From: Yamagishiella unicocca
Taxonomy: Eukaryota > Chlorophyta > Chlorophyceae > Chlamydomonadales > Volvocaceae
DNA length: 64,000 nucleotides
NCBI GenBank assembly: GCA_003116995.1
Contig: BDSL01000033.1
Coordinates: 310,001 to 374,000, forward strand
Direction: 5' to 3'
The notes below the pieces were generated by a model that worked only from the letters and a program-made list of their open reading frames with translations, was not told where the DNA came from and did not search any database. Positions 8,537 to 64,000 of the stretch are shown one piece after another. Both the position numbers and the translations under genes were made by a program. Positions within the stretch are counted from its first letter, which is position 1. Every line of letters begins with the position of its first letter.

Positions 8537-11500
8537 CTACAGACTCAGCGCCAACCCGGGCCGCTCAGCTGCCGCTGCCAGCAGCACCTTGGCCGTGGCG
8601 GCGTCGACGGCGTTTCCGGACAGTGCCAGTCTCCGGAGGGACCCGCCGCTGGAGCCGCTGCCGTCAGCCGGCGACGATACGCCGCCGGCGGGCGGCATGT
8701 GGCGGGCCGCGCCGGCAGCACGTATGGCGCCAGCGAAGCAGGCTGCCGCCGCTCCTGCCAGACCGCAGCTCGACAGGTTGATGTCCTCGACAGTCCTGTA
8801 ATTGTGGGGTGGGCGGCAAGGGGGCACGGGACAGGGCGTGGACGTGGGTGCTTGAGGGGATCGGGTGTAGATTTTGTGGTCCCCAGCGGCGGCCAGGGAG
8901 GGTGCGGTGCTGCGCGCACGGTGCACAGTTGGACCACACGCAGCCGCGGCCATCGTTTCGGCATAGGGCTCCCACGGTACACAGGGGGCTCCTACAGCGC
9001 ACAGAGGGCTCCTTGGGCGGGTAGCGGCGCCTTCGGCTGGTGACTAGCATGACTAGCAATTCCGCGGCCATGTCCGCAGGCGGCTGCCCCCGCAGCGGGG
9101 CCCCCGCCTCCGTAGCGCCATACTTGGCTACAGTCAACGTTGCCTATCACTACACCTCAGCCGTTCCTGCTCTTTGGCGCGCCGCTCCGCTGGACCGTCA
9201 CCTTCACCGCCCTCGGTTTGTCGGCCGTGGATTCGCGGATTCTCTTATCAACCCCCTGCCCCCCCCCCGCGCCGCACCTGTTGACCCTCAGCGCCTGCGC
9301 CACCGCCTCCGCTCCCGTGCTGCCAATCCCCTCCAGCCGCTGGCCCGACAGATCGAGGCGCAGCAGCGTGGAGTTGGAGCCCTCCAGGCAGCGAGCCAGG
9401 CTGCGAGCACCGGCGGCACGTATGCCGTTCCTGCGAGGGGCGTAGGGAGAGGGGTGCGGGAAGCGGCGCCGCTGGTGTTGGGAGGCTTGAGGGCTGGAGT
9501 GAGCTGGGCGGCGATGAGGGTTCCTGTCACCGTCGTTAGCTGCGCCCAAAGGAGCACAGGTTCGCAAGGATTGTACGAACAACGTACGATGTCGAGCTTT
9601 GTGGCACCGATAAGGAGAGTAGCCATACACTTGTCGCCTCCAACCAGGTCTCATATTGCTGCGGCCTGGTGATTGGCATGACTAGCAATGCGGCACGCAG
9701 CAGCCCCGCGGCGTTACCTGCTGAGGTGTAGCTCGCGCAGGCCGGTGTTGGCGGACAAGCCCAGCGCCAGCAGCGCCGCGCCGCCGTCGCCCAGCTTGTT
9801 TCCGTCCAGCCGCAGCCGGCGCAGCCTTGGGCACGTCAGCAGCACGGTCATGACGAGCACCATGTGGTGCGACTCCAGCGCCTCGGCCGACAGGTCGCAG
9901 TCCACAGCCGCAGACGCCGCAGCGGCGGAGTCCACGGAGGCGGCCGCTCCTGCGGCGCTGAAGGACGCAGCACCGAGGGTGCTAGCGGGGCGACGCAGGT
10001 CGTCCGAGGTGATGGACAGGGCGACGGAGGAGGCGGAGAGGCTGCTGCCGCAGGGGGGTCCGCTCCGCAGGCTGCCGCTGGCTACAGAGGAGGCTGCGGC
10101 GGTGCGCGGTGCTGGGCAAAGGGGTGCTGCTGCTGCGCCGCCTGGCTGCGGCTGGAGCAGCAGTGCGGCGCCGCCTGCTGGTGCGGGCCGGGGGGCCAGG
10201 AGCAGCATGTCCCGGTACCAGCCGTCCAGTCGCTCGTTGCCGCTGTACAGGCGGAGCGTGCCGTGGCCCTCGCCCAGCCGCTGGCTGCCCGCCTCCTCCT
10301 CCTCCTCGCCGCCTCCGCCGGTCGCCAGCTCCGCCAGGCCGGCTGCAAGCAGGTCCTTGAGCATGGCGGCCGCCTCCAGGTCAAACAGGTTGGTGGCCAG
10401 CTTGACGCTGCCGAGGGGGCCGGGCGGGGGGCGAGGGCGCGGAGGGGAACAAACCCGGGGAAGCTACATGAGTGCTGGGTGCGGAAGATGTGCCGGCGGG
10501 TCCCACAGGGAGCCCGCTGCGGATTCTGGAAATCGGTCAGTGCGATGAGACGCCCGTGCGATGAGACGCTCGTATGTTGTGTTAGTGGGAAGCGCGGCGG
10601 TTACACGGTGATGGGATCGGACCCACCTGCGCAACATGCCCCCCGCACCGCCGCTGCCGCCGCCCAGCGCCAGGAAGGGCAGCGCGGTGCCGTTGCCCAG
10701 CTCGCCCCACGTCCAGCCGCCCAGCTGCAGCGTCTGCAGGCTGTTGTTGAGGCCGATTGCGGCGGCCAGGCAGCAGATGCGCAGGCCGGCCTGCAAGGCA
10801 CCGAGCAAGGGAGCATCAAGGGGGAGGCAATGCGGGCAGTTAGGGAGTGAGCGGCGGTGGCAGCACTAGCATCTGCCTCGGCGCATGTCACCCCGGCTAA
10901 TCCAAAGGCACGCGACGGATTCAGGCGCTTTGCGAATGCTTGTGGCGCACCCGCACCCACACACGACGCACCCACACATGACGCGCGCACCTTCTCCCAG
11001 GTGACCTCCCGGGAGGTGTCCATGTCCAGAGCCAGGTGTCGCAGCCGTGAGGAGTCCATGATGCCCGCGGTCAGGGCGCCCAGCAGCGGCAGAGGGGACT
11101 CGCAGATCTTGAGCCGCAGCTGCTGCTCGCTGGTGACTGCGCCGTAGCCGTCGGCGGGGTCGGCAGCCTGCGGCGGGGGTAGCAGGACGGCGGGGAAGCA
11201 GCGCGGCGCGAGGAGTCAGTCGCAGTGCTCAGCGTGCGGATGGGAACGGCACGAGGAGGAAGGAGGCAACATCAAGAGAACGATCTTTAGACCACCCCAC
11301 AGTCGTTGGAGAACGGAGACGATGACGGGCCACGGGTCTAGGACTGCAGAGCGGGCCTGTACGTTCGCCCAGCGAGTATAAGAGGGTCAGCAGCGCATCG
11401 TATCGTCAGCACCCCCTGTCCTGGCGTCTGGTGCGCCGTGGCGCCTTCCGGTGGGGGCAACCGCTGCGCTTCGCGGGTGTCAGCGCCGGTGGTGGCGACT

Positions 11501-18527: not shown

Positions 18528-21500
18528 ATGTCCTGCTCAAGAATATTGGTGTTTCTCTGGGTGGCGTTCGTGAGCGTCCCCCTCACACATTGTGCCCTCG
18601 TCACTACGACGTCCCAGCTTTTCGCGGCACTCTCGGACCCAGCTGTTACCACCGTGTTGTTAAATGATACTCTGGAGATTAACAGCGCGGAGTGGGGGGA
18701 AACTGTCAACATCACCCGCACGGTCCTGCTGTCAGCAACTTGGGAGCGCCTGGCCGCCAAGACGTACGTGCTATTGGACTTCAAAGGCCTTGCGATGATG
18801 TTCTGGATTCAACCAAGCTTCACGCTGAAGTTCGCTGGGCTGGAGGTGCGCCTGGCCTGAAGCAGTGGAGGTTGGATAGGCGGTGTGACCTGAACCCCTG
18901 AACGCAGACGGGCATGCTCCTCGCCAACCCAGCCCCCGCCTCATTTCCCTCTACCTGTTGAAAATCATCCTACATTGTGTGACCGGGGAAGGGATCCCAC
19001 CTCCGACGCTTGCGCTCCGCCCTTCGAGCACGCGCCTCGCCCCGCCTGTTTCCAAATGCACCGCAGCTGGTCAACCACTACGACACGGTTGGACCCACCT
19101 TTCGCCCCCTCCACCAATCTCTGGACGCGACTGTTGTTTTTGAGGACTGCGTCCTGCGCCGCCGCGCTGGGCTGCCCTACAAAGCCGCGCTGGTCAACAT
19201 GATCGCCGCAACCCGGCCTGTGGGCATGAATGGTCCACAGATATGCACTCTGCTGCCCAACCTAACATACCGCTCCACACGCAGCGCGTCTCCAATTTTC
19301 GTACCGGAAGTAATCAACATGTACGACTACGCCACCACGCTGCCTCCCGACAGGTAGCGGGGGGGCCTCGGTCGTCGGATTGCGGTTGAATCTGTGATGG
19401 CGGCGTGGGGACAGTGCTGTGCTGTGCGTGCGTGACACAGCGCATCACGGAAAAGCGGTTTTGCGCAGAGTGAAGCTAAACTAGGATCATATATCGCTTC
19501 GGCTGCACTCGCGCTAACGCATCATGCCAATGTCCTAGCAGTCTCGGACGACGGGGTGACAATCTGACGTGCTGCGTCGCCCAAGCTGCGGCCGACAACT
19601 GAAATTCACCCCCCCCCCCGGCGCTCTCCCGCCGTTGACCTGACCCAGCGCCCTGGCGTACCAGGGACTGTACTACGGCGGCTACACGTACGTCACCGTA
19701 CGTTCGTACTACTATGTGGATAACTTTGTATCCGACGAGTGCCTGAAGCAGCGGCCCGGCACGGAGTGCGTCACCCTGCTGCTGCAGCAGCTGGACGGTT
19801 TGACGGCGCCAGCCACCAACCAGGGCGACGGCGGTGGCTCGTCCAACACGAGAACAGTAAGCCGCCGCAACGCCCGAGGGGCATGGGGGAGGGTGCGGGG
19901 GCGGCCAGGGGGGTCCTGCCGTCGGGATCAGAGGCGGCGCTAGGTATGCAAGGCCCACCTGGCGGCGCTAGGTGATACCTAGGGGTGCTTCTACGCTGTC
20001 CAGGGAGGGCCGCTGCGGCCTGGATCATCATAAACCTCTGCAGCCGACACTTCTCCGCACCACCACCCCGCTGGTCCTCCTTCTCCTGTGTCGTGTAACC
20101 GGGCCTTGTGGAGTCGCCATCCCCCTGGTAGGAGAAGCGGGGTCTTTTAAAACCCTCTCACACCCCCCCGGTGGCCTGTGTGCTGCAGATCATCGTCGCT
20201 GTGGTCGTACCCGTCGTAGCTGTGTTGTTGATTCTGTCGGTGGTCGCCGTCGCAGTCGTCCGGCGCCGCCGGGCCAGAAGGGCGGCCAAAAGCATACAAG
20301 CGATGAAGCCCGGGGGCGATGTGGAGGCGCCCGGCAAGGGCCGCTCGCCCTCGTCTCTCGCTGCGGCCCACGACAGCGGCTGCGTGTTCATGGGGCTGGA
20401 GGAGAACCAGCAGCTGCCGGAGTGGTCGCCCCTGGCTGCTGACGTGGTGCGTGGGGTCGTCCCGAGGCGCGGGCGCCGGACACCTACCGCGCACGCTGCC
20501 TGAACCCATCACCACCACCACAGCCACTACAGCCACCACCGCGGCCACCACCACAGCCACCACCACCGCCACCACCACCACCACCACCGCGGTCACCACC
20601 ACCACCGCCACCACCACCACCACCACCACCACCACCGCGGTCACCACCACCACCGCCACCACCACCACCACCGCGGTCACCACCACCACCGCGGTCGCCA
20701 CCACCACCACCACCACGATGACGATGCAGGCGGATCCAGTAGCCCTCTGTCCGGGAATTGATTGTGCAAGTGGAGCATGGGCGCATCCCTTCCACCAGCT
20801 TAGACGTGCGCACACACGTACCTCGTTGCGCCGGCATGCATTCCCTCGCGTTGCCTAACTAAGCGCCGTACTCGCCTGCCTGCATGGTGGTGCCTGGTGG
20901 TGCTGTGGAGCGCAGGAGGAGTTCGAGGTGGACGACGACGAGCGGGTCCCGGACCACCTCACCCAGGGCGACGCGCGCGGCTTGACGGAGGCGGAGGTGC
21001 AGCTGCTGCAGACGCAGCAGGAGCAGCAGCAGCGGCGGATGGGCGCCTCGGCATCCGACGGGGCCTCATGCGCCCGCGGTTCGGGGCTGCTGAAGCCCGC
21101 GCTGTCCACCCAGTGCCTGGACGATACGGGCGGCGGGAACGACGCCAGCAGGCGAGGCAACCCCAATGAGGCGGCCGGGGGAAGGAGGAATCAGGCTGGA
21201 GCTGGAGGGGCGGCGGCGCTCGCGAGCCCTGCGGCTTCGGAGCGGCCGGCCGAGGGGCCCGACATGCTGGCGGAGCTGGGCCGCATGGCGCAGGAGCTGC
21301 GAGCCAATGTGAAGGACGAAGCCATCAAGCTGGAGGCGGTCATCGGGTGCGGCTCTTTTGGCACGGTGTATAAAGGTAAGTGGGCGCGCGGGGTGAGGCG
21401 AGGCGCCGTGGCGGGGCCGGGGGCGTCGCAGGAGGACGGGGCGCAGCCTTGCTCATCTTGCTCCTTTCGCTCCTCTTGCTGCTCTTGCTCCTCTTGCTCC

Positions 21501-24500
21501 TCTTGCTCCTTTCGCTCCTCTTGCTCCTGCTCCTGCCCTCGGCGAGCCGGCGGACGTGCTACTTCCCTCCCCTCCTCGCTCCCTCCCCCCTCCCCCCCCA
21601 GTGTACCAAACGTTTCGTAATAGGTTTACTTTTTTTAAGTGCCTACCAACGGGTCTCCTGTCAAGTCCCCCCTGCAGCTGCAGGGCCCCTTTTTCATCCA
21701 ATGCCCTTGCTGGGACCAAACCCCTCCGTCCCCGCTCTCGCCTCCTCTTCCGCTCACCGTCCACCGTGCCTGAACAGGCACCTGGCAGGGCCTGGCAGTG
21801 GCGGTCAAGACGCTGGTGTTCTCCGCCTCGGATGAGAGCCGTCGCCGGGCGCTCCAGGAGGCTGCGCTGTGCGCCTCCATCACCCATCCCAACGTGGTGG
21901 TGAGTGTCCTCTGGTCCGCGCCTCGACGTGGTCGTAGACACCGCCCACGTGCGTGTATTGTGTGTCTGTGTATGTGTGAACGTGCGCCGGGACACGCAGC
22001 TGGGCTTCCTCTCCCAACCCCGCCCCCAAATCCCAATCCTATCCATGTCGATAGTAACCGATTTTTATGCCACCCCACCCCCCAACCCCCAAACCCCCCA
22101 ATTGTTTTTTCGGGCATCCACGAGTCTTCTTCAAACCCCCCTGCACACTTCGGGACCCCCGCAGGCCACCTACTCGAGCGAGCTGCAGCCGCTGAGCACC
22201 ATGGGGGCGGCGCCGACCACAGCCGGCTCGGCGGAAACGCTCCGCGTCAGCAGCGGGCCCGCGGAGCGAGAGCTGTCGCAGATCCTGGTAGGTGACCTGG
22301 GGGCGGGCTACCTGAGGGCGCTGAGGGCACATGAGGAAGGGCCGGACGGGCGGGCGAGCTGAGGGCACATGAGGAAGGGCCGGACGGGCGGGCGAGCTGA
22401 GGGCACATGGGGAAGGGGTGGACGGGCGGGCGAGCTGAGGGCACATGGGGAAGGGGTGGACGGGCGGGCGAGCTGAGGGCACATGGGGAAGGGGTGGACG
22501 GGCGGGCGAGCTGAGGGCACATGGGGAAGGGCCGGACGGGCGGGCGAGCTGAGGGCACATGAGGAAGGGGTGGACGGGCGGGCGAGCTGAGGGCACATGG
22601 GGAAGGGCCGGACGGGCGGGCTAGCTGAGGGCGCTGAGGGCACATGAGGAAGGGGCGGACGGGTGGTGGTGGGGTTGTGGGGGTGGCGGCGGTGAAGGTC
22701 CAGGGATGGGTGGTTACTAATCAGGATGTGTCGATGATAGATACGAGTGGCGGCTCGGTGCACGGTGTGCCCTGCCTCCGGCTCCAGCGAGCTCCAGAAG
22801 GTCCGCGCATCCAGCAGCAGGTATTGAGAGCACAACCCCCCCCGGTGGCCCGCAGGAGTGGCGGCTGTACATCGTGCAGGAGTACGCCGACGGCGGGCCG
22901 CTGAGGAAGCTGTACGGCAATAAGGCCCTTTGGCCCTCTGCCGGCGTGGTCAACATGGTGGGTACCCGCAGCCGTGTCGCCGTGTGGTGGCGGTGGCGGC
23001 CGCAGTAGCGGTGTGCCTCTCTGCATGGACGCACAAGATGGGATAAGGTTGTGGCGATGTTTGCGGGGGCTTGCAAGGCTGTTTGTGGGGGCGGGGGACG
23101 GGACCAGAGCCATTTTGGGCTTTCCCGCCGAGTTGCATTTGCGGGGGGACGTCGCGTGCTGACGGGCCGCTGCGGGGAAGCAGCGGGAAGTTGCGCATGT
23201 CATTATGTTTCAGCTGCCCTCCGCTTTTCCTGCCATGCCGTGCCGTGTCGTTCTGCGGCGCGCCGTGCCAACCATGTTACGTGCCAACCATGTTACGTGC
23301 CGGCGCTGCGCCTCCCCTGCTCCTCCCCTCAGCCGGCCGTGGTGGGCCTAGCGCTGGGCATTGCCAGGGCGCTATCGCACCTGCACTCCAAGAGGATCAT
23401 CCACGGGGGTGAGTGGCGCCCGTGCGCTATGCTGTTTCCATCTGCCCTCGCCACGTCCCTCCGTTTGCGGTCACTCCAATTACCCGCGCACTCCCCAGAC
23501 TGGCTCGTGCTGCGCCTCCATTCTGCCTTCCCTCTCGCCGGCATCTGCCTTCCCTCTCGCCTGTATCTGCCTCCCCTCTCGCCTGTATCTGCCTCCCCTC
23601 TCACCGGCATCTGCCCGCGTCACCTGCGCCCTAAACGGCCCCGCCCCTCCCCACCCCGCCTCACCCCACCCCACTCCGCTCGCAGACCTCAACCCCAACA
23701 ACGTGCTGCTGAAGGCCGATGCGGCTGAGCCGTCGGGTTACGCCATCAAGGTCGGCGACTTCGGACTCAGGTACGGACGCTGCGGCCAGCTGCAAGAGCT
23801 GTGTCCTTCCTGCTGGCCCCGCAATGACGTGCTGAAGGCGCCGCTGGGACTCGCCCTACCTTGCTAGGTTGCTAGGTTGCTCTTTTGCGACCAGCGCGAT
23901 AAGCCCGACGCCGCTCCCCCTCCTCCAGCGTCCATCCAGCCGCCGGCCTGCCTCTCCCTTCCTCACTCCGGTTCTCCGGCCCGTCTCACCCCCACCTTGC
24001 CCCCCTCCCTACGCATACCGGCCCCCAGTGTGCTGCTTCCCCAGAACCGCACCCACCTGAGCAACCTGCGCATGGGGACCATGTTCTACATGTGCCCTGC
24101 AGTAGTCATGAAGGTACGGACACGGGGCTGGGCTGTACGACAAGTGCTAGATAGATACGTTGACGGCACGTTTCACCGCGTGGAGATGCCGCCGCTGCTG
24201 CCGTGCGCGCCTGCGAAAAATCGCCCGTTGTTGCGCTCTATGCTTAGGAGCGCCTCCTTTCGCCGCCTGCTATGTGGCTCCAAAGCGAGCGAGCGTGCCT
24301 TGGGGAGGAGAGGACCTGCTCGTCCCTTTTTTCCGACCGCATGTACGGCGGCCGCGATGAAGCCGTTTCCCCCCGTGTCCGCGCCCTGAATGGGCCACCC
24401 TGTCCCGCGCCGCCTTGTTCCCCATGTCGCAGGGACAAGTGGGTCCGCCTTCCGACGGTGAGTCGCAAGTCGCAGCAGCAACCATTCCGACGAGATGGGG

Positions 24501-38614: not shown

Positions 38615-41600
38615 ATGTCAGGGATGAAACAGCAATGCAAAAGCGGCTGTTTCAGTCGCGCCGAGGCTCCAACTGTAAAGTCGCTGCGCCCTTGTGCTTT
38701 TGGCCAGCTGCCTAACGTCAGGGCACCAGTCCATGCGACGGCAACAAACTCCAGGACGCTACTGCGACCATTGGCTGCAGCGAGCGTTGCTGTTAGCACA
38801 GAGGTCGGCAGCTATGTGACACAGGAGGCTCGGCGAGCGGTCTTCGAGCGGGCCAAAGAACAGGTACGATGTGAAGTGGTTTTAATGGAACCGCTTGTTT
38901 ACACCGCAAAAATGGGATGCTGAAAAAGTCCGTTTGGTAGTTCGGATTGTCATCCTCCGCGCTACGCACATACGCGCGCGCACCAGGGAAATCAACCACG
39001 CCAACAAAATTGCTGAATGCCCACATGAGGAATACTACGATGCCCCACGACCTGGCTCAATGCACGTGCATGCGCTTCGTATCGCCAAACCTCCAACCAT
39101 CACCGGTATCCACCTGGTGCCACATCACTCGGTATCAGCACGTCCAGCGGGATAGCACAAGGCCTAGCTGCACTCGGCCCCCCCTACGGATCTCCACTCA
39201 CCCCTGAAAGGTTGCCTCGCACCTCTGCCTCCTCGCCCGGGGCAACTCGTCACCATCGCACACACGTCACCAGGCGCCCCACCAAATCCACCACCACCCA
39301 ACTCTTCCCCCCGCTCCCGAATCTCCCCCCTCCACCTACCCGCCCCCCTCTCCCCCTCCTGAACGTGTCCTTCTCAGTCTTACTTTTCAGAGTCGACCTA
39401 TAGATTCCCTCTGACCCCCTTCCTGCCGTACAGTATCCCGAGGCCGAGGCTAGTCTTCTCTCCGGCCGGCTGCCCTCGTGGCTGCGCGGCTCGCTGCTGC
39501 TCAACGGCTGCGGGGACTACAGCGGCATGCAGCACCTCTTCGACGGTTACGCCTGCGTCACCCGGCTGGCGCTGGACGGGTCGCAAGGGCGGGGCCGGGT
39601 GGCGGCCAGCCAGCGGTTCCTGGACACCGACGCGTACGGGTGGGTTCGTGTCGGTATCATTGAGGTCGCCTCTCTTCCCACAGGGCCGGTGTCCTCTCCC
39701 CCGCCTCGTCCCTCCCCGGTCTTCCCGCATACACACCGCCCTTCTTCCCCGCTCTGCCTACCCCTCCACTCCCTCTCTCCACCCCCTCTCGCCCTCACGC
39801 CCTGCCGTACCGGCCCCGCAGGAGCTTCTGCAGCACCGGCCGTATGAAGTACCGCGAGTTCCAGACGCCGGTGCCCGCGGATGGACCGCTGGCACGGGCG
39901 GTGGCGGTGGTGGAGAACCTGCTCACGCTGGTGGGGCTGGTGGGCTTGAGGGGGCCCTGGTGGGGCTGAGGGGGGGCTGAGGGGCCTGGCGTACTCCTCG
40001 GGGGGGCTGGGGGGCGGTGGGGGTGTACATGGAGTCAGGTGCTGTTTGGGCGCTGGGCCGCGCTGCGCACGTGGAGCCTCCCGGATGTCAGCCACCAGCC
40101 ACCAGGCAGCTGACTCCGCCCCTCGCGGCTGTCCTGGTCAACGCCTGCAAGCCTCATCACCCCCGCCTGCAAGCCTCATCAGCCCCGGCACGCCCTCAAG
40201 GTAACCACCACAACCACCACCACCATAACCACCATAACCACCACTGTCCCGGCCCCCGCGCAGCTGAGCAAGGGCCGCGCCTTCACGGACAACGCCTCCG
40301 TCAGCCTCACACCGCTGCCCGGGGGCAAGCTGCTGGCGCTCAGCGGTAAGAGGCTGAGCGTACGGCAGGGCGTACGACAGGGTGTACGGGAGACACCCTT
40401 CCACGGGATAAAACAGAGCGCGCGCACCCGCCGCTTTTTTCCCTCTCCCCTCTGCGGCGGGTACATGTCGGCCCAAGGGCTTCCGTTGAACCCCCCCCGC
40501 CTCCATCATCAGGCCTTCACTCTCCCCTTCCCTCCCCCCCTGTCAACGGTTCTTTTACCGGTTCTTTTATTGTAACCCCCCCCGTCAACGGTTTTACGCC
40601 TCCCTCGCCCCCGCCTTTACCCCTCCCCTCCCTCCCCCCTGTCTCCCCCCGCCCCTCCCCCCCCGACCATGCGCCCACTATCCTGTCTTTTTCGTGTCAA
40701 CGGTTTTCACGCCGCCCCTCCCCTCCCCTCCCTCGCCCCCCCAGAGGCCCGCACCGCCGCCTACCTGGTAGACCCCACCACGCTGGCCACGGGGCCCCAC
40801 GTGGAGTACGGCGACGGCCTGCCGGGCGACCTGACCACGGCGCACCCCAAGATGGCCCCGGACGGCTCGCTCATCAACTTCACCCGCAGCCTGCCCGCGG
40901 GGGGATACCACGTCTTCCGACAGGACCCGGTCAGCCTGCAGCGCCAACAGATCGCATTCATACGGTGCGCCTGGGGCCGGGAGGGGCCGGGTGGCTGCGG
41001 AGGTGCAGGGGGGCTGTTGTGGCGTGATTTTGGCCTAAGCGAATTTCCTGCAGAACTTCTTGCTTGCAAAGGCAACGGGTCGGCCGTCTTGAAAAAAGAC
41101 TCATTAAAAGACTTGGAGGGGGGATGAGGGTGCCGGGGGGGAAGAGCGGTGCGGACTGGGTTGGCTGCTGCTGCGGGTGGCGGTGCGGTCGCTGCCCCCC
41201 CGACTAAGGCGCCACCTCGTGTGAGTGTACGCTTTCACCTGGAACACCTACAAGCCAAACCAGCAGGCCTCAACCCCCTCTTCTTCCAGTTTCCTGATCG
41301 GATGACGTGTCCACTGTCGACCCACGGGGTTTCCTCTGATAAGCCCATGATAAGCCCTTCTCGCCCCCCCCCCTCCTGCCCCCCCCCTCCTGCCGCCCCC
41401 CCTCCTGCCGCGCCCCCTCCCCCTGCCGGCCCCCCCTCCTGCCCCCCTCAGCGACCGCGACCCCCTGGCTCCCTGCTGGGTCCACGACATGACCATCACG
41501 TCCTCGCACCTGATCATCGTAGAGCCACCCATTTTCATCAACATGCAGTCGCTGGTGCTGGGCAGCCCCAGCCCCTTCGCCTTCATGGACTGGCGGCCGG

Positions 41601-43678
41601 AGGTAGCGGGGGATTACAAAAATATCGGGGGAGGGGGTTTGATAAGAGAAGGGCGGATAGCGGGGGAGGGGGGAGGGAAGGGGGAGGGGGATTTGAGGGG
41701 AAACCGTAGCTCGGCACTGGAAAAATGAAAGTTGGACCGCCGGGGACACATGCCCTGGGGGCGGGTATTAGAGGGGTCCCGGCGCATGTTCCGCCTCCGT
41801 GTGGAGCCGTTGCAATGACACGCTGGAGCAACTCCCTTGTCCCTTGGGTTTTGCTCTTCCCGCCACTCCCTAACCGCTCTCCTCGTTCCCCCTCGCTCCC
41901 CCTCCCTCCCCCTCGCTCCCTCTCGCTCCCCCGCCCTTCAGGCGGGTACGCGGGTGCACGTTGTGGCTCTCGACGGCTCCGGGGTGAGTGCTTGGGGGGG
42001 GGAGGGGGCTTGGGGGAGGAGGGTTTTTATATAAGATAATCCAAGAACCCACGGCCGATAAACCGAGGAGGGGGGCCGTCACTTGCTGGGCGGGGTTACA
42101 GGGCGTTCGGGAGCTCACGGGGGCCGACCGGGCTGATCCTCGAGGGGGCCTTCCAGCGCTGCTTCGGCGGGGAGGTCGCGGCACCTGCCGCCACCTACCC
42201 GCGTCCATCCAGCAGCCAAACCCAAACCAACCCGTCAGCGCCAGCGGCCCACCTCCTCCTGACCCACCTCCTCCTGCCCCACCTCCTGGCTCCCAGATAC
42301 TGTACCCATGTCGTGTGACCGGGTCCTTATGCCACCCCACCCCCGCCTCACGTCCTCGCAGGCGGTCACTCACACGGCGCCCACGCTCTTCACGTTCCAC
42401 TTCTGCAACGCCTTCGAGCGCGCCGCTGCGGCCGGCGACTCCGGAACCGAGATCTGCGTGGACTTCAGCGTGTACGATGATCCGGAGGTCATCAACGACC
42501 TCTCCCTGGAGCGCCTTAACGCCTTCCCGGGCAAGGGTGAGACCATAGGGCCCCCCTCCACGCCACATTACGTCATCCTTCAGATCTCGTTAGCTCATCA
42601 CGCTCACGCCTCCGCCGCCTTCCCTCCCCCGCTCCCCACCCCCCGCAGACATCTCCCCTAGCTGGCTGCGGCGGCTGACCATCCCCCTCAAGGACGCCGC
42701 CGGCCGACCCGTGGGTCCATCCTCCCTGGCCGCCCCCGCGCCGCTGCTGAAGGACGAGGACGCGTACGGCAATTTCATTGAGTTCCCGGCGTACAACCCC
42801 AGGTGAGTACGGCACTGTAGTGACACACGCCGGGGCCCTTGCTTTGTGATGTAAACCCGTAGCCGGCGGGCATTCGAGATCCGTGGATCTTGGACCAGGA
42901 CAATGCCTCTTTGACTTCCTGGCTGACGTGGCTGCTTGCTAAGCAGCACGCACCGCTGCAGCAATTGCAGTTGTTTGGGAGGGAGACGCAACGTCACGAG
43001 GCAAGCTACCCAGTGCCAAACCCCCAGTCTCCCTCCGGCCCCCAAACCCCGCATGACGCCCCGCGCCTTCCGTGATGACAGGTTCCGCGGACAGCCGTAC
43101 CGGTACGCGTACGGCACTGCCGCCGTACGACCGACCAACATGGGCAACGCGCTGGCTCGTCACGACCTGCAGGAGGGCACCAGCAAGCTCTGGCACCAGC
43201 CGGGAGGCATGCCGGGTAGGCAGGGAGGGGGCAGGGGAGGGCAGGGAGGGGGAAGTGGAGGGAGGGCAGGGGGCAGGGCAGGGCAGGGAGGGGGAAGGCC
43301 AGGGCAGGGTGTGCCCTGTTGTATGTTGCGGTGCTTGTCTGAGGGGTTACCGCGACCCTCCTCTTCTCCTCTTTCCCTCCGCATCTGTCCGCCGGCCACC
43401 CACTCTTCCGCCATCACGCCCCTCCCCTCCCCTCTCCTGTGTATGCCCCTCCCCCTCCCCCGCTCCCCCGCTCTCCCCTCCCAGCTGAGCCCGTCTTCGT
43501 GCCGCGCCCCGGCGGTACGGCAGAGGACGACGGAGTGCTTCTGGCCACAGTGGCCCAGGCGGACGGCAGCAGCGCGTTGGTCGTGCTGGACGGGGCCAGC
43601 ATGGAGGAGGCGGCGCGGGTGGCGCTGCCGTTCCAGGTGCCGTACCGCTTCCACGGCACGTTTGTGGCGGCCGAGTAG
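38615..43678 (+). CDS. carotenoid cleavage dioxygenase family protein
   Basis: Eleven exons: 38615-38863, 39434-39639, 39822-39930, 40264-40345, 40745-40964, 41452-41602, 41942-41983, 42362-42536, 42649-42802, 43082-43215, 43485-43678; 571 aa, phases close. The N-terminal ~60 residues are Ser/Arg/Ala-rich and lack acids, fitting a plastid transit peptide. The family core follows, including the early WLRGSLLLNGCGDYSGMQHLFDG block. All four iron-binding histidines are visible: TAHPK (~250), WVHDM (~300), FTFHFCNAF (~366) and RFHGTF near the C-terminus. The enzyme should use Fe(II) and O2 to cut a carotenoid or apocarotenoid double bond. The subclass (CCD1, CCD7, CCD8 or NCED) cannot be fixed by eye; the compact length and divergent sequence are compatible with a CCD8-like algal member. 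Confidence 0.9.
41690..41740 (+). repeat. intron repeat, type A (diverged)
   Basis: GAGGGGAAACCGTAGCTCGG in dioxygenase intron 6, sense orientation, ~90 bases after the donor. Confidence 0.45.
42030..42068 (+). repeat. intron repeat, type D
   Basis: AAGATAATCC...CCACGGCCGATAAACC in dioxygenase intron 7, sense orientation, ~45 bases after the donor. Confidence 0.8.
42301..42340 (+). repeat. intron repeat, type C
   Basis: ATGTCGTGTGACCGGGTCC in dioxygenase intron 7, ending ~21 bases before the acceptor; the same intron begins with a type D copy. Confidence 0.7.
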
Positions 43679-46139: not shown

Positions 46140-46560
46140 CAGGTAGGATCCGATGGCGCCGCTGTTGGGCCGGATGTCCGACGCCACCTCGGTGAGCTGC
46201 GCTCCGGATGGCATCCGATCGGAAGCAGCCAGCGATTGGACGCACATCGCCTTGTTGCGTGGTGCCTCTGCACGGACACGCCTGACCTCTGCCATGCTCA
46301 GGCCGGCTGCTGGCTCCGCGATGCCTGTGAGGATCGATGTGGGCGTGGGGAAGGCAGACAACGACGGTGTTGTTGGTCGGCGGGGGCAGTTTGTTGGTTG
46401 TCATGCGAGGAGCAGTCAGGGTTGGCGTAGCATCCTTGTTCGTTATGAAGCCGGTGTTTGGGTGGGCATTGGTTGGTGTTATATATGTATCCCAGTCACA
46501 GGAACCACACTTACGGCGGCGCTTGATGGCGAGCGTAGCAGCAGTAGTCGATTGCGCCAT
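45948..46560 (-). pseudogene. unknown small protein, right copy, read through the loop
   Basis: Exons 46560-46515 and 46324-45948 mirror the left copy with the same intron. After SESMPPGAVL-like sequence the frame runs through the loop in antisense and stops inside the opposite arm. The C-terminal third is therefore probably not native protein, and the copy is best seen as broken. Confidence 0.5.
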
Positions 46561-46985
46561 TGATGCAGTTGTATGTGGTATGTATGCAGAACGATGATAT
46601 CAGTTTGGCTTGCAACATGTGTTTAAAGTAATGCAGTAAAGTTATGAACTATTGCATAACGTGGAACGTGGCAGAACTAGGTGAACATGAAGTGCAGCGT
46701 CATTAAGGAACCTGCGGCCAACGCCACCGTGGCAACTGTGCCTCCATTTCGACAGCAACCTATAAAGCGCTATATTCACGCACAATACGAAAGTAAGAAG
46801 TATTTGCAATGTGGCCATGCAAGCCAGATGTCAAGTGCTGACATGTAGTGTAGCTATCTTTAAGCATGGCTAATGTGCTGCGTTTCGGCCATGTCTCCGT
46901 GAACTTCAGTAATCTACACTCACCTGTGAGTGTTCGTCCTGCCTTTCCGAAGACAGGTGCGCCGCCACCGCCAGATGCTTCCCCG
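46099..46985 (-). repeat. right arm of a long inverted repeat
   Basis: It mirrors the left arm. The ~110-bp loop 45989-46098 is unique. Outside 46985 the coding-like minus-strand sequence continues, so this arm appears to sit in the longer, ancestral context at its outer end. Confidence 0.95.
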
Positions 46986-49554: not shown

Positions 49555-49574
49555 CCTTGTAATACTCGCATTCT
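49555..49574 (+). repeat. target-site duplication, right copy
   Basis: Perfect 20-base copy of 47587-47606, directly after the retrotransposon 3' end. Confidence 0.9.
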
Positions 49575-49724: not shown

Positions 49725-52700
49725 ATGGTCAACGCTTTGCTGTTGCGGCTGCCAGCGGACGGAGCTCCGTCGGCAGCACGCCATGAGCAGGATGCTCGCA
49801 ACGCCGGAGACGGCAACCTTCTGCCTGCAGAGATATGCGCCAGCTCTTTTGCTAGGGCGTGTGCAGCCCGTCGCTCCCTAATAGCCTCCGCGTCCTCCTC
49901 CCTCTCCGGCGTTGCAAAAAAGCCGCGCCCCGACATCGCCCATGACTCCGCAGCCGCGCCCCTGGAGACTGCAGCCCCCCTCGCGGGACCGTCCCCGCCT
50001 CAGGAGCTGCCGCTGCTCCTCATCAACTGCCGCGTGCTAGACCCCGCTGCGGGCGCCTACCTGAGGGGGCTGCAGCGCGTGATGCTGCGGGGGGGCGTTA
50101 TTTCCTCTGTGGAGGCCATGCCGGGGGGAGACGACGGCGACGGCGGCGCTGCTGGGAGCTCAGCGGCTGGCGCTGGTCCAAGGGCGGAGGAGCAAGTCCC
50201 TGCGGCAGCGGCAGGGGCAGCGGCGGCGGCAGCGGCGGCAGCGACGGAGGCAGCGGCGGTGGCAGTGGAAGCGGCGGCAGCGACGGCAGCGGTGGTGGTG
50301 GACTGCGGCGGCGCCGTCTTGATGCCGGGTGTGTTTGTGTCGTCAAGCCAGGCGCTTGGGAAGTGGCGGCCCTTCGCGTCGCTTGTGTCGCCACCGCTAC
50401 CTAGCAGCCTAAGCGATTGGTGCTTTCTGCAACTCTCCGTGCATGAATACGCACGAGGCATCGGGGTCGCGTCTCCGCCGCGGTTTCCCATGCCCGAACT
50501 ACCGCCATGCCGTCCTGGTCCAACCCAGACCACCCGCTGTGCCCACCCACCCACCCGCCCGCCCGCTCGCGCGCGCCAGGCCTCTGCGACGCGCACGTGC
50601 ATTGTACCGCGGTGACGGCCAACCTGGCGGGCCTTATGTCGCTGCCCGAGTCGTACGTGGCAGCCAAGTCGGCGCACATCCTGGCTGGCATGCTTGCGAG
50701 GGGCTTCACAACCGTAAGGGACGCGGGTGAGCGCTGCCGGCGGCCACGTCGTACGGCGTTAGGGGGCTTGGGGGTTGCCGTACGGTGGCCAGGCGTGTTG
50801 GCGGCGGCATGTAGGCGCCTGACGCGCGCTGTCGTACTCACATTACCGCACCCTGCTGCCCACTGGCCTAGTGCTTGGTTGGACGTATGACATCACACTC
50901 CGTTATGCGCCTTATGGAACCCCGCGTGTAGATCATTGCCCCACAATGCAAATTCGAAACAAGGGACTTCCATCCTAAACACAGGCGGTGCGGACTTCGG
51001 GCTGGCGCAGGCGGTGGAGGAGGGGCTGGTGCTGGGGCCCAAGATTCTGTTCACGGGTAGGTGGTTGGGCGGTTAGGTGTACGGGCGGTTACCGTACAAG
51101 GGTTCTGGGGATGCGGAACCCAGCAGGTGTGGGTGTCACCAGGCCTCTGGGTGGGAAACCGATGGGTGCGTGACGTGAATGGGCGGATGTACAACGGATG
51201 TACGGCGCAAACAACCAACTAACCAACCAACCAATCTCACCGGACCTCGCCTTTCGACGGCATGCCGCTCTGCCCCCCGACTCCTTACCCCCAGGTCACG
51301 CTCTGAGCCAGACCGGCGGCCATGGCGACTTCCGGGGCCGAGGCGAGGACCTGTGCGCGTGTGGGGTGGCGCTGCGAGGCATCGGAAGGGTGTGCGATGG
51401 CGATGCGGAGGTGGGTGCGGTGGTGGTGGTGCTGGTGCTGGTGCTGGTGCCGGTGGTGGTGGTGCTGGTGTTAATACAGTTGTTGGCTGCATGTATGCTG
51501 GCAGCTGCTGTGGCTTGACTGGCGCAACGTGGGGCTGCATCTTGGCTCGCCCGCCACCCATCTGTCCGCTCGTCCATGCTCGTACGCTCGGCCATGTTTG
51601 TACGGCGCCGTATTTGTCGTTGCAGGTCCGCCGCGCCGCGCGGGACGAGCTTCGTCGCGGCGCCCACTGCATCAAGATCATGGCCTCGGGGGGGGTGGCG
51701 TCACCCACCGACAGGTAATACGGCAGCTGTGCAGTGAGTGACTTAGCCGTACCCACTCCAAGCCGCCGCGCCGGATACCGCTAGTACGAAAAAATAATAT
51801 ATTTAAATCGGCCGACAGACCCTATCGCGAGCCCATACAGGCAGTTGCAGTTACAGACGTGCCTCTGCATTACCGGTTCTCTGCGCCGCCCCTGGAGCCT
51901 AGGTTGCTAAAGAAGCCTGCCCCACGAACCGCGCTCCTGGCGGCTGCCGCCGCTGGCGCTGCTGGTCTTCCTGTCCTGCTGTGCAAACAAAGGATGCACA
52001 TCAATACTTAATGCACATCAATACTTAATGCACATTAATACTTATTACGACGCGGCAATGAAATGGTGCCCGGCTGCCACCCGCCAGGCTCACCAACACG
52101 CAGTTCTCAGAGTCGGAGCTGAGGGCCATCACGGAGGAGGCGCAGGCTGCGGGCACGTACGTGTGCGCTCATGCCTACACGCCGCCGGCCATTCGGAGGG
52201 CGGTGCAGTGCGGCGCGCGCTCCATAGAGCACGGCAACTACCTGGACGAGCCAACGGCGCAGCTCATGGCCGAAAAGGTGCGACGCGCGCGTGTCGTACC
52301 GTCGTACTGGTGTCATGTGTGCTTGAGCGCGCGCATGGGGCGGGATGAGATTTGCTCTCGTCGCTTTCCCGGATCCGCTCTGGGTGAGGTCAACCGGAGC
52401 GGGATCCGGAGCGGGATCCGGAGCGGGATCCGGAGCGGGATCCGGCGCGGGATCCGGTGGGCGGTCATCTCTTTCCAGGGGTAACCCCAATCAGCTCACC
52501 ACGATTATGAAAACCCGGTCTCCCTTCCTCGCCCTGCGAAGCCCTAAAACCCGAATGCTCCATTTCGCAACCCGCACACGCGGCCTCACTCACCCCCTCC
52601 CCAGGGGGCCTACTTTCTGCCCTCCGTTTCCTATGTCGTGAAACCGGGTCTTCTCGCCACCTCTCCCCCCACAGGGGGTGTTCCTGGTGCCCACCCTAGT

Positions 52701-54173
52701 GACCTACCAGGAGCTAGCCCGAGGTGGCGCAGCGGCCGGCATGCCGCAGGTGGGTGGGGGGTGGGGAAGACCCGTGGGTCGGCACTGACTAGGAAACCGC
52801 TTTGAGGAAGCTGGTAGCTGGCTGGCCGGCATGCAGCCGGAAGCAGTGGAGACGTGCCGCGCCCACTCGTCGCGCCAGCAGGCAGACTCCCTGCCCTCCT
52901 TCCCCCCCTAGCCACCTGCTGCGTGTGAGCCCTGCCTCCGCCTTCACCTCTGGGCCTCCTTCACACCCGTGCAGGAGCTGGTGGCCAAGGTCGGGGATGC
53001 AGTGGAGGCGGTGAGTAAGCGGCTACCTACCTACCTACCTACCTACCTACCTACCTACCTACCTACCTACCTACCTACCTACCTACCTACCTACCTACCT
53101 ACCTACCTACCTACCTACCTACCTACCTACCTACCTACCTACCTACCTACCTACCTGCTGCTGAGCGTCCCGCTCCAGGGCAGTCACTGCCCGCCCCTCA
53201 ACCCCCCACATTCTTCCTGACCCGGTGCCGTCAACCTCCTGGTTTCGACTTTCCCAGCGCAGCCAAAATGCCAACCCGGGCCCATCCACCGCCGCGCCGT
53301 CGTACCCGTCGTACCTGTCGTACAAACCCGCAGGGCCTCAAGTCGCTGGCTGTGGCTCAGGCCGCGGGTGTGGTCATGTGCTTCGGCAGCGACCTGCTGG
53401 GGGAACTGCACCCGGCGCAGGTGGGCAGGGAGGCAACTTGTGAGGCCATAAGAAGCCCTACCGTTCTGCCTGCTGCTTCCAGCATTCCTCTCTCCGCTCT
53501 CCCCTCTTTCTGCACGGGCTTCCCTTCCCAAACCCTCCTTCTGCCTACTTGCCCCCGCCCCCCCCCCCGGCCACCAGGCTGCCGAGTTCGAGCTTCGGTC
53601 TCGGGTGCTGCCGCCAGCGGACATCCTGCGCTCCGCCACCACCAACTGCGCTGCGCTGTTCGGCCTCGAGGTGCGTATGCCGGGCTGGTGGCTGGTGCCA
53701 CTTACTTGTCGCCGTCGCTGCTCTGCTGACCAGGCAATACACATGCTTCGTCACCGCACCGGCCCCACCCACCGACCTGCCTCCCTGCACCTCGCGCGCA
53801 TATACACACCATCCTCGCGCAGTTCACGCTGGGGCGGGTGCGACCCGGCTACCGGGCCGACCTGCTACTGCTGAGCCCGGGGGTGGACCCGTTGGCGGAC
53901 TCAGCGGCGCTGGCGGCCCCGGGGGGTGCCGCGGTGGCGGCGGTGTTCAAGGAGGGGCTGCTGGCGAAGGCGCCCCGGCCGCCCAAGACGAGCTCGCGGG
54001 CAGCGGTTGGAGCAGCTGGAGTCGCACCGGGGGGCGGCAGTAGCAGCGGCAGCGGCAGCGGCAGCAGGGCAGATGGCGCTTTGGGAGAGGGGCGGGGCTT
54101 GAGGCCGGCGGGGGACTGGGGGATGCTCAACGAGAGGTTGTTCCCCTCGGGGTTTTGGCTGTCAGCGTCATGA
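49725..54173 (+). CDS. metal-dependent amidohydrolase
   Basis: Eleven exons: 49725-50328, 50580-50726, 50985-51056, 51295-51410, 51626-51714, 52088-52277, 52675-52749, 52975-53010, 53334-53420, 53578-53670, 53823-54173; 619 aa, phases close. After an ~85-residue Ala/Ser/Arg N-terminus (possible transit peptide) comes LLLINCRVLDPAAG, the start of the amidohydrolase beta-sandwich, with a poly-Ala insert near 155-190. Metal ligands of the TIM barrel are visible: DAHVH (His207, His209), Lys330 in HCIKIMASGG, His371 in CAHAYT, His391 in SIEHG and Asp463 in GSDLL. The sandwich closes with RPGYRADLLLL. The lysine suggests a binuclear, carboxylated-Lys centre as in imidazolonepropionase/prolidase-like members. 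The substrate cannot be told; a C-N hydrolase acting on a cyclic amide or dipeptide is expected. Confidence 0.9.
52395..52460. repeat. 12-bp tandem repeat in amidohydrolase intron 6
   Basis: GGAGCGGGATCC units, about five copies, shortly after the donor at 52278. Confidence 0.9.
52621..52660 (+). repeat. intron repeat, type C
   Basis: CCTATGTCGTGAAACCGGGT in amidohydrolase intron 6, sense orientation, ending ~14 bases before the acceptor. Confidence 0.7.
52757..52790 (+). repeat. intron repeat, type A
   Basis: GGGGAAGACCCGTGGGTCGG in amidohydrolase intron 7, starting ~8 bases after the donor. Confidence 0.6.
53022..53156. repeat. (CTAC)n tetranucleotide array in amidohydrolase intron 8
   Basis: About 33 perfect CTAC units begin ~12 bases after the donor at 53011. 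Confidence 0.96.
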
Positions 54174-61271: not shown

Positions 61272-64000
61272 TCACAGCACGTATCGTGACAAGTCCTGCT
61301 TCTTCAACAGGTCGTCCAGCTTGCGGTGCACCAGCTGCTCGTCCACAACGTACTCGTACCTGCAGTACGACGTCGCGGCAGCGGGGGAAGCGGGACCGCG
61401 AGGGGAAAGCAGGTTGGGTACTCCGCAACACAGCGAGCCAGCAGGCGAAGCCCCCTCCCCTACAACCGCCAGTCCCAACCACCAACCACCAACTGCCACC
61501 CCGTGTCCCCCCGTGCCCTTACGTGTCCTTGCCCTCCGCGCGCGCCTCCGCCACCCTCTCCGGCGCTCCGAAGCTGATGTCCCCCAGCACCCTCTCCAGA
61601 ATGGTGTGCAGCCTTCGCGCCCCGATGTTGTCCAGCAGCCGGTTGGCCTGCTCCGCTAGGGAGGAGGCGGCGCGGATGGCGCCGTCGGTGAACACCAGGG
61701 ACACGCCCTCGGTCGCCATCAGCTCCTGGGGGGGGCCGCACCGCAGGGTTTCAGTACTTCAGGGTTTAGAATTTTAGCGGGGGAGAGAGGACCGCGGGTG
61801 CGGGGGGCACAGAGGGGCTCACTAGCGGCAGCAGTGGCAGGAGAGGGGGAGACACGAGGGGGCCTCCCAGGTGGGGACGACGGAAGCGAGAGCGCGGAGG
61901 AGAGCAGGGCCCTTGACATCAGGCGACGAGGGGACGCAGCCGGCGGCGGAGAGGGGCGGTGCAGCCCGCCGCGGGCGACATCACCGCGCACCATCGCCCC
62001 CACCGCCCCCGCCCCCCAAACCCCAACGAGTGTACGAAACATCTCCTACTTAGTTTTACGTTTGAGTGCCGACCTGCGGGTTTCCTCCCATACTCCCCCT
62101 CCCATTCGCGCCGCACCTGCTGCTGCTTGATCATGTTGTTGTCCGGCTCCGTGAGGATGCGGTAAAAGTCGTCGGCGGTGAGGCCCTTGAGCTCGACACG
62201 AATGGGCAGGCGACCCTGGGGGCGGGGGGTAAAGGATAATCCGCGAATCCACGGCCGACAAACCAAGGGCGAGGAAGGTGGGGGCGGGGGGCGGACAGTG
62301 GCGGGGGAGGGCGGCGTCAGGAGGGGCGACACGGCGCAAATGGGAGGAGGCGGCAGTGCGGGAGGTGGGGGAGCTGGCGGCCCGTCTGTCCCATGCAAGT
62401 CGCAAGACGCCAGCGACAAGCATTGTGAAATGTGAATCCTCCGTCACCCCCACATGGCCCCATCCCCGTATCCCAGCACCGCCACCCAGCTCTCCGTGCC
62501 GCCCCTCCCCCACCACCGCCTGCTTTAAACGGTTTTTTCGGGCATCCACGGGTCTTCCTCGAATCCCCCACCACCTCCAGTTTCTGTCCTCCGTCTCCTA
62601 TATCGTGTAAGCGGGCCTTCTGGGCCCCTCACCACCACCATCCGGGGCTTCCTTGCAGCCACCATCCGGCCCACCACTACCATCCAGCCAGCGATCTCCA
62701 CCCCCCTCCCACCTGCAGCTCCGCCAGCATGTCCGAGGGCTTGGCGGTGTGGAAGGCCCCCGAGCAGATGAACAGCACGTGCTCCGTAGACACGTTGCCG
62801 TGCTTGGTGGGCACCACAGAGCCCTCGATGATCGGCAGCAGGTCCCGCTGGACGCCCTCGCTGCTCACGCCGCCGCCGCTCACCATGCGGCCACTGCTGG
62901 GCTCCACGATCTTGTCGATCTGGGGTTTTAAGGAAGACCCGTCGATGCGAGCAAAAACCGTTTAGAACAGACGTTTTGGGGTGGGGGTGAGGGAGGGAGG
63001 GAGGGAGGGAGGGCGCGTGCTTCGCCAACGTGTGTGTATTACTTTGCCTTGTGGGGTTTCGAGGAAGACCCGTGGATGCAAGAAAAAACCGTTTAGAACA
63101 GACGTTTTGAGGTGCATGCTGGGAAGGGGGGGGAAGCCGAGGGGAGGGCACACACAACTGGAAGACCCGCCCCGCAGCCGCCAAGATGCCTCTGGCCCCG
63201 GCAGCGCCACCCACGGCACCCGTCCACTTGCCACCCGTCCACCCGGCACACACATACACACCTTTTCGCCTGCTTTTCCTTTTAGGCTATTTATTAGAAA
63301 ATACACGCCCCTCCCCCCGGGGGACCACGGGTCGTCCTCGAACGCGCCGGGGGACAACTTCAAGCGAGTGTACCCTGCGACGTTTCCTACTCGGTCTCGC
63401 CCTGCCGCGCCGACCTGCGTGTTTCATGCCACACAACCTACGGTCTCCCCCCATGCCCCCAGGATCGACCTACGGGTTCCCCCCATGCCCCCAGGATCGA
63501 CCTACGGGTTCCCCCCATGCCCCCAGGATCGACCTGCGTGTTTCCTGCCCCCCCCTTTAGGCTCACCTCGTCGATGAACACGATGCCGTCCTGCTCCGCC
63601 GCCCGAATGGCCTCCCGAGTCACCTGATCGCTGCTGAGCAGCTTCTCGGACTCAGCCTCCGCCAGCCGGGAGCGGGCCTCGGACACCTGGGGGGGGGGGG
63701 ACGCGGCGGGGCGGGGCGGTGGAGGGGAGAGCGGGGGGAAGAGGGACGAAGAAGAAAAACAGCAGCAGCAGGGAAACGTCCACGCCGCGAGACAGGGAGT
63801 CAGATAGAGGAGTCGCACTCAGCGGTCCATCACGTCCGCAGTCCAAACAGCCCGCCACGATGCCCACGTGGTGCACCGTAGCCGGTACCCCGCCCCACCG
63901 TGAGGCTCTTCTTGCTGCCCTGCCCGCCGCGGCCTCCGGCGCCGCTCCCGCCCCCGGAGGGTCCGAAGGGGCGGTCGGGCCGCGCAAAGAGCTTGTCTAG
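61272..64000 (-). CDS. HSLU: HslU (ClpY) ATPase subunit of the HslUV protease, 5' part outside window
   Basis: Exons in gene order: 64000(partial)-63899, 63686-63567, 62919-62713, 62215-62117, 61725-61523, 61359-61272; 272 residues in the window, phases close. Visible blocks are the Walker B box GIVFIDE followed after splicing by [50 protein letters not shown], a sensor-2 region [14 protein letters not shown], and the diagnostic terminus DLSRYVL. The C-terminal tail of HslU docks into HslV. Walker A and the targeting peptide must lie beyond 64000. HslU unfolds substrates with ATP and feeds them to HslV; in protists it is mitochondrial, and that location is inferred here. The first exon (Gly/Ser-rich DRPFGPSGG) is probably part of the I-domain. 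Confidence 0.93.
62028..62091 (+). repeat. intron repeat, type B
   Basis: GAGTGTACGAAAC...GCCGACCTGCGGGTTTCCTC in an HslU intron; antisense to the gene, ending ~25 bases from the donor. Confidence 0.65.
62231..62269 (+). repeat. intron repeat, type D
   Basis: AAGGATAATCCGCGAATCC then ACGGCCGACAAACC in an HslU intron; antisense to the gene, ~15 bases from the acceptor. Confidence 0.8.
62521..62570 (-). repeat. intron repeat, type A
   Basis: Reverse copy (GGGCATCCACGGGTCTTCCT) in the same HslU intron as 62231-62269. Confidence 0.8.
62587..62625 (+). repeat. intron repeat, type C
   Basis: CCTATATCGTGTAAGCGGGC in the same HslU intron, directly after the type A copy. Confidence 0.65.
62921..62986 (+). 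repeat. intron repeat, type A
   Basis: GGAAGACCCGTCGATGCGAG then AAAAACCGTTTAGAACAGA in an HslU intron; antisense to the gene and flush with the acceptor CCCCAG at 62920. Confidence 0.85.
63052..63114 (+). repeat. intron repeat, type A
   Basis: Second copy in the same intron and orientation as 62921-62986, sharing the CCGTTTAGAACAGACGTTTT string exactly. Confidence 0.85.
63318..63350 (-). repeat. intron repeat, type A
   Basis: Reverse core GACCACGGGTCGTCCTCGAA in the same HslU intron. Confidence 0.55.
63365..63430 (+). repeat. intron repeat, type B
   Basis: GAGTGTACCCTGCGACGTTT and CGACCTGCGTGTTTCATGCC in the same HslU intron; its tail resembles the 31-bp tandem array that follows. Confidence 0.65.
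63448..63545. repeat. 31-bp tandem repeat, three units, in HslU intron
   Basis: AGGATCGACCTACGGGTTCC units separated by CCCCATGCCCCC; the last unit ends like the type B repeat (CGACCTGCGTGTTTC). Confidence 0.88.

Follow-up and report, generated by a model that had tools for sequence, protein, structure and literature searches.

What do the short repeats that recur in the introns of this locus represent, and why do they lie in a fixed orientation towards the nearest splice site? The preliminary description of the locus distinguished four types of repeat (A-D) and proposed a mobile family, possibly introner-like, that either makes introns or colonises them. We analysed the whole stretch of 64 kb (hereafter the window: positions 310001-374000 of contig C33, in an assembly of 133.4 Mb and 1,415 contigs) together with further loci of the same assembly. 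The G+C content of the DNA under study is 63%, which, together with RT relatives in Chlamydomonas reinhardtii and Tetrabaena socialis, suggests a green alga of chlamydomonadalean affinity.

Repeats of types A-D in predicted introns

Genes were called with a purpose-built small HMM without transcript input, trained first on the window plus 50 kb of contig C2 and later on the window plus 140 kb from other stretches. Since this HMM scores introns and intergenic DNA alike, the repeats cannot bias its gene calls. Copies were located by profile search (nhmmer), and those matched at E<1e-3 are referred to as strong. Copies are oriented so that the G-run end is on the left, and the strand of each listed copy refers to this orientation.

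The window contains 15 profile matches, 13 of them strong, and all 15 are located in predicted introns, on both strands (Table 1). The type B copy is the seed of its own profile, and window copies helped to build the profiles of types A, C and D. About 20 related copies in the introns of seven genes had been described previously; their existence, intronic location and presence on both strands are confirmed, whereas the count is 15 and the predicted host genes are five. The gene finder probably merges some neighbouring genes, which bears on the latter difference. A core match at 38106, previously considered intergenic, lies in a predicted intron of 717 nt (38064-38780).

Table 1. Profile matches of types A-D in the window. 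Orientation is that of the strand with the G-run end on the left, relative to the host gene; E, E value of the profile match.
Type	Position	Strand	Orientation	Host intron	Distance to splice site	E
D	9215..9246	-	sense	8796-9277	31 nt from donor	1.5e-10
C (weak match, not strong)	20084..20102	-		19834-20255		0.059
C	22036..22070	-	antisense	21900-22164		5.3e-4
A (short)	22100..22138	-	antisense	21900-22164	26 nt from acceptor	2.5e-7
C	34167..34209	+	sense	34131-34442	36 nt from donor	1.1e-12
A	35514..35564	+	sense	35504-35801	10 nt from donor	
C	40669..40712	-	antisense	40346-40744	32 nt from acceptor	2.9e-9
D	42033..42064	+	sense	41984-42361	49 nt from donor	2.7e-6
C	42293..42332	-	antisense	41984-42361	29 nt from acceptor	1.1e-5
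C (weak match)	52627..52652	-	antisense	52278-52674	22 nt from acceptor	0.0049
B (profile seed)	52765..52802	+	sense	52750-52974	15 nt from donor	
D	62233..62264	+	antisense	62216-62712 (HslU-like gene)	17 nt from acceptor	4.7e-10
A	62517..62566	-	sense	62216-62712		
A	62923..62983	+	antisense	62920-63566	3 nt from acceptor	1.2e-16
A	63054..63122	+	antisense	62920-63566		5e-23

As a check on four element-bearing introns of the window, the spliced proteins were aligned to solved structures; no gap was observed at any of the four junctions. These were the junctions of introns 62920-63566 (host of copy 62923..62983) and 62216-62712, both spanned by the alignment of the HslU-like protein, and those of introns 52278-52674 and 52750-52974 in an amidohydrolase-like protein aligned to structure 3feq. 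In the region 55655-64000, the gene model fuses the HslU-like protease ATPase with a long low-complexity protein, probably two neighbouring genes.

When the elements were N-masked before gene calling, 124 of 144 matches kept the same call and 20 changed. The masked calls placed 100 matches in introns of at most 900 nt (89 of which obey the orientation rule described below); longer introns and exons received 15 each, and 14 lay outside genes. We take the loss of stop codons through N masking to be a partial cause of the 20 changes.

Abundance and location in the genome

The 13-base type A core is present in 3,876 exact copies (1950+1926) in the 133-Mb assembly, compared to 6 (4+2) for the reversed control. 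For the type D core, 1,222 exact copies (596+626) were found genome-wide and for the type C pattern 112 (61+51), with none for either control. An exact type A 77-mer occurs five times in the assembly.

Location was assessed on a set of 204 kb picked without regard to the elements (the unbiased set), composed of the 64-kb window, where the repeats had already been noticed by a reader, and of 140 kb from elsewhere. Among its 57 matches, 47 are located in introns of at most 900 nt, 7 in longer introns, 2 in exons and 1 outside genes, the last three all being weak (E 0.002-0.009). The 44 strong matches (13 in the window) are distributed between introns of at most 900 nt (37) and longer ones (7, of which five form one tandem array), with none in exons or outside genes. 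In 37 loci chosen around a type A copy, this copy was in an intron 28 times, in an intron of more than 900 nt 7 times, in an exon once and outside once. Over all loci, 113 of 143 strong matches lie in introns, 16 in longer introns, 13 outside genes and 1 in an exon. In one set of calls with 18 matches outside called genes, 15 of these were, as counted by eye, at most 300 nt from the end of a 3-kb locus. Locus L009, a duplicate of the window, was dropped before the profile-search, location and orientation counts, and L053-L057, which repeat other regions, were excluded from the profile data.

The previously reported absence of copies from intergenic DNA holds for the strong copies of the unbiased set, with 0 of 44 outside genes, but its evidential weight is low. 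Indeed, the 736 non-exon G-runs of at least 5 in the unbiased set fall in introns of at most 900 nt (612), longer introns (63) and outside genes (61), so that only 3.6 of the 44 strong copies would be expected outside genes from G-run supply (Poisson p 0.026). In exons, 12.0 strong copies would be expected when 276 exon G-runs are counted, against none observed (p 6e-6). Selection against exonic copies is therefore likely, and some avoidance of intergenic DNA beyond target choice is possible.

One fixed end, one truncated end and target-site duplications

Alignments show that each type has one fixed end, located at a G-run, and another end that is variable. In the 54 type A copies that were placed, the variable end lies at 36-110 nt in 50, at 233 nt in one and at 470 nt or more (the flank limit) in three; this length distribution is not unbiased, because loci L010-L038 were picked as best matches to a 63-mer. 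Near-identical type A copies are dispersed over the genome. By eye, types A and C share the stretch GCATGCTGGAG, positioned further inside type A, which suggests that the two are akin. Types B, C and D, alike in anatomy, are probably the 3′ ends of families that we infer to be related.

To score target-site duplications, the left flank as far as the GGG was compared with the sequence past the truncated end, and flanks shuffled among copies served as control. The fixed end could be placed in 72 of 96 copies (54 A, 13 C and 5 D). Scores of at least 8 were obtained for 29 of these 72 copies compared to 4.7 with shuffled flanks, and scores of at least 11 for 12 copies compared to 0.3. No duplication scoring at least 8 was found in the other 43 copies, and G-rich flanks raise the background. 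Duplications are exemplified by CAACTGGCTGGGT in L037 and GGAGGTGGGCGGGGG in C2a. In the window, copy 35514..35564 carries a likely duplication (GTGGGGGCGGGGG / GTTGGGGCGGGGG) starting at the donor GT, and copy 62517..62566 is flanked by GGAGGTGGTGGGGGA / GGCGGTGGTGGGGGA, both halves of which are within the intron. Three other duplications (C2a 31349, L003 and C60a 22527) extend across the exon-intron boundary at the donor. A fixed 3′ end, 5′ truncation and target-site duplications are thus all present, as expected of a target-primed retroelement.

At L026 (1330-1564), type A units form a tandem array with a 57-nt period, joined by CAGCT, which could reflect repeated target use or unit slippage.

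Type A as the 3′ end of a reverse transcriptase-coding element

Long type A copies have 825-837 bp in common at 94-99%, and four have about 1.5 kb in common. At three of seven fetched loci (L058, L059 and L061), type A runs unbroken into the C-terminus of a reverse transcriptase (RT) ORF on the opposite strand (...LLADIHRHL*). L062 also continues to the RT C-terminus, with a nested type A copy in between, while the sequence stops short of it at L060, L063 and L064. A search of the assembly with protein P0001 gave at least 57 RT matches (43 of 584 candidates scored). At least 8 of the 40 type A interior copies listed adjoin an oppositely oriented RT match; the distance is 640-689 bp for seven of them and 744 bp for the one on C154. 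Four of the eight are loci L058, L059, L061 and L062. The nested copy, of about 48 nt, is inserted in a G-run of L062 and accounts for the extra length at C154, and the corresponding site is empty in the three related sequences L058, L059 and L061. On the 3′ side of five further RT loci, a type A end was found in four (L066, L067, L068 and L070). For L065, which belongs to a more distant RT family, none was found within 2 kb of this side.

Since type A runs into or adjoins RT ORFs, it corresponds to the RNA 3′ end of RT-coding elements, and the short type A copies are best read as 5′-truncated insertions of these elements. Their near-identity and dispersion, the duplications, the RT-coding source and a nested insertion with related empty sites support the earlier proposal of a mobile family colonising introns. 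At the single locus L062, type A units flank one RT copy on both sides, suggesting a pseudo-LTR organisation. No RT ORF was linked to the B, C or D ends among the loci traced. A weak type D match (E 7e-4) was observed at 1572-1590 of L068, in the 3′ region of an RT-coding copy.

The encoded protein

The closest relative, P0001, shows 64% over the searched region, and homologues include three Chlamydomonas reinhardtii proteins named reverse transcriptase (47-52%). P0010 of Tetrabaena socialis, named ubiquitin-protein ligase E3A in the public source, contains an RT match (47%), and its annotation may therefore include element sequence. The AlphaFold model of P0001 has a mean pLDDT of 58; it is of low confidence up to residue 241, and 37 of the 40 ten-residue blocks of residues 671-1070 are at 69-94. 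Foldseek with this model returned telomerases at all of ranks 1-11, with low TM-scores (0.20-0.29 by query length). As judged by this predicted fold, the enzyme would be related to telomerase RT.

N-terminal to the RT, P0001 and L069 share 54% over 312 residues, in a block where the motif GVVY...VYVGHT...R...E...N was recognised by eye. The top Pfam match of this N-terminal block is GIY-YIG, at an E of 0.15, below the cut-off. In P0001 and at C110:221859-225223, such an endonuclease (EN)-like block lies ahead of the RT. Provided that the GIY-YIG-like block is the endonuclease, the latter would thus be N-terminal to the RT. A possible CxC linker was seen by eye only, as CAC in P0001 and CCC in an L062 frame.

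When residues 1-240 of P0001 served as query, P0001 itself was the sole match. With Pfam, no family was found at the thresholds used for three L062 frames and P0001-P0003; below the cut-off were RVT_1 in P0006 (E 0.002) and DUF4714 in P0013 (E 0.0044). A sequence search of solved structures with an L062 frame gave no RT and one match at E 0.31. The identification as an RT therefore rests on homologue names, fold match and motifs. The element most likely fits the Chlamys-type Penelope-like elements as characterised below.

Orientation of the copies and G-run asymmetry of introns

With the G-run end placed on the left, a single rule is common to types A-D: this strand is the sense strand in copies close to donors and the antisense strand in those close to acceptors. 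The strong intronic copies comprise 52 sense copies in the donor half and 49 antisense in the acceptor half; the exceptions are 8 sense copies located on the acceptor side and 4 antisense ones on the donor side. The rule is therefore obeyed by 101 of 113 copies, or 84 of 92 after collapsing per intron and orientation. The orientation first described for types A and D holds, whereas type C, described as their mirror pattern, obeys the same rule once its G-run end is set left.

In the introns of this genome, the sequence downstream of donors is rich in G and that upstream of acceptors in C. In masked introns, G-runs of at least 5 are found 227 times sense in the donor half, 269 times antisense in the acceptor half and 46 and 70 times otherwise (496 of 612 fit the rule), and 222 of 257 G-runs of at least 6 fit as well. 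The elements follow the rule slightly better than G-runs of at least 5 (101:12 versus 496:116, Fisher p 0.03; collapsed per intron, p 0.018), but no better than G-runs of at least 6 (222:35, p 0.50; collapsed, p 0.27). Of 140 strong copies, 74 have GGGG at their left edge, compared to 429 of 2,660 random positions matched for intron half and strand; the remaining 66 copies lack it in the interval tested, partly since the C and D profiles begin inside the element. Counts of GGGGTTTCGAGG (383) and of a non-G before TTTCGAGG (112) do not form a like-for-like ratio and were left unused. Thus, the orientation rule can be explained by insertion at G-runs together with the G/C asymmetry of introns and, the fit being close to that of bare G-runs, target choice explains most of the pattern.

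Alternative explanations

If introns themselves were the target, for instance via R-loops or intermediates of splicing, G-runs would be just a by-product; such targeting would be consistent with the slight excess of concordance over G-runs of at least 5 and with the lack of strong copies outside called genes in the unbiased set. However, sense copies at donors (52) and antisense copies at acceptors (49) are about equally frequent, which leaves no link to the transcript strand, and the nested insertion occurred in the G-run of another element, be the setting of that host element intronic or otherwise. We therefore regard intron targeting as improbable. Very improbable, in our opinion, is that the motifs are kept as splicing signals, or that sense and antisense copies pair across the intron and bring its splice sites together. 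One could expect this from their clear orientation, G-rich near donors and C-rich near acceptors, but bare G-runs show almost equal asymmetry, 263 of the 299 introns of at most 900 nt in the unbiased set are without a recognised element, and the copies bear duplications and are truncated to various lengths, as is typical of insertions. A sense copy on the donor side occurs together with an antisense copy on the acceptor side in 3 of 299 introns, against 1.15 expected, too few for pairing; an intron hairpin was rejected on this count.

The introner reading, according to which the host introns arose by exonic insertion of elements that bring or recruit splice sites, is less probable still. The repeats do resemble introners in being mobile, intron-enriched and often 2-20 nt from a splice site. 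The three duplications over a donor resemble splice-site recruitment, and L038 harbours a sense copy near the donor together with an antisense copy near the acceptor. Nevertheless, the host introns are too large: the 36 element-bearing introns among the 299 have a median of 396 nt, and of 371 nt without the element letters, compared to 257 nt for the other 263. Over all loci, the leftover after element removal was never below 69 nt in 92 element-bearing introns, and thus each element resides in an intron that would be of sufficient size on its own. The distance from element edge to splice site varies continuously, from 2 to several hundred nt, and inspection of 24 introns by eye revealed no second end common to the copies at the opposite splice site. 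Copy 62517 has both duplications inside its intron. On leftover length, the lack of a common second end and duplication position, and with the orientation accounted for by G/C asymmetry, we abandoned the idea of introner-like repeats that make introns. Least probable of all are short MITE-like DNA transposons with terminal inverted repeats and a preference for introns. These would likewise be short, multicopy and flanked by target-site duplications, but the repeats have a single fixed end, the other being cut at many positions, and their long copies run into an RT ORF. A unit whose two inverted ends are the donor sense and the acceptor antisense copy was also rejected, both being present in 3 of 299 introns only.

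Proposed mechanism and comparison with known systems

We consider it very probable that the type A repeats are 5′-truncated insertions of the 3′ end of a Penelope-like element, most likely of Chlamys type, at the G-runs of intron ends. The element RNA would end in ...CCTCGAAACCC(C). Its protein would nick DNA at a G-run, and the exposed ...GGG-3′ end would pair with the C-rich RNA 3′ end and prime reverse transcription. Synthesis would often halt after 40-110 nt, leaving a duplication of about 7-15 bp that ends in GGG. With G-runs concentrated sense after donors and antisense before acceptors, insertions would come to lie near intron ends in the orientation observed. Those in coding exons would presumably be purged by selection, while those duplicating a donor may stay spliceable. 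One may further imagine that the element uses introns as a standing safe site, its primer-pairing 3′ end matching G-rich donors and C-rich acceptor tracts, and that its 40-110 nt copies, in their thousands, have given rise, unrecognised, to long introns in core-Reinhardtinia algae; we find this extension rather doubtful.

Chlamys elements, which Craig, Yushenova, Rodriguez and Arkhipova reportedly described in 2021, are said to be green-algal Penelope-like elements with an N-terminal GIY-YIG and a CxC linker before the RT. The type A element resembles them in its telomerase-like RT fold, N-terminal EN-like block, C. reinhardtii relatives (47-52%), duplications and strong 5′ truncation. A further likeness is the lack of a hammerhead in L062, as judged by an Rfam search that found no structured RNA family there; on the same result, a structured RNA family was rejected as a candidate. 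It differs from Chlamys elements in inserting at G-runs and in leaving many 3′ copies of tens of nt at intron ends. LINE copies also have a fixed 3′ end, a truncated 5′ end and target-site duplications. In contrast to a 5′-truncated LINE, the type A element shows a C-rich 3′ end with no A-tail seen, a G-run target and an RT fold nearest to telomerase.

Canonical Penelope elements show short target-site duplications, 5′ truncation, a GIY-YIG domain and copies side by side (PMC3846280, PMC11167929). The duplications, the 5′ truncation and the type A units on either side of one RT copy in L062 are similar. However, canonical Penelope has a C-terminal endonuclease and pseudo-LTRs, whereas the EN-like block of the type A element is N-terminal. 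Introners, as presented by Gozashti et al. 2022 (PMC9860276), create introns, are mobile and intron-enriched, lie near splice sites and sometimes show splice-site duplication. Type A-D copies sit inside larger introns, and the source of type A is an RT element. The Chlamys group of Penelope-like elements is mentioned in PMC12477816. Titles and abstract openings in the literature searched contained nothing on a G-run-targeting Penelope in algal introns; the paper defining Chlamys was outside this coverage, and a prior description is possible.

These results suggest that a retroelement target rule combined with intron base asymmetry can mimic introners, producing insertions that are intron-enriched, oriented and near splice sites. 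G-run/C-run asymmetry is therefore a control needed in introner screens. In six core-Reinhardtinia species, introns are exceptionally long (median 198-343 bp) and lack the usual peak at short lengths (PMC8226300), and we infer that the genome studied belongs to this group. The insertions are a candidate cause of long algal introns, although the recognisable copies amount to about 2% of intron sequence here (1,805 of 86,498 nt), so that a large contribution would be conjectural. Insertions that duplicate a donor could also seed alternative donors.

Other repeats of the window

The window carries several other repeats. A near-perfect inverted repeat of 1.9 kb (45101-46985) is composed of 603-nt arms around a 116-nt spacer, and of outer arms of 283 nt that are 99% complementary. 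A tandem array with a 38-nt unit (22320-22666) is located in a predicted intron of a kinase-like gene. Long, mostly perfect microsatellites are found at 53023-53160 (CCTA), 32547-32654 (CCAT) and 29320-29424 (CCTCA).
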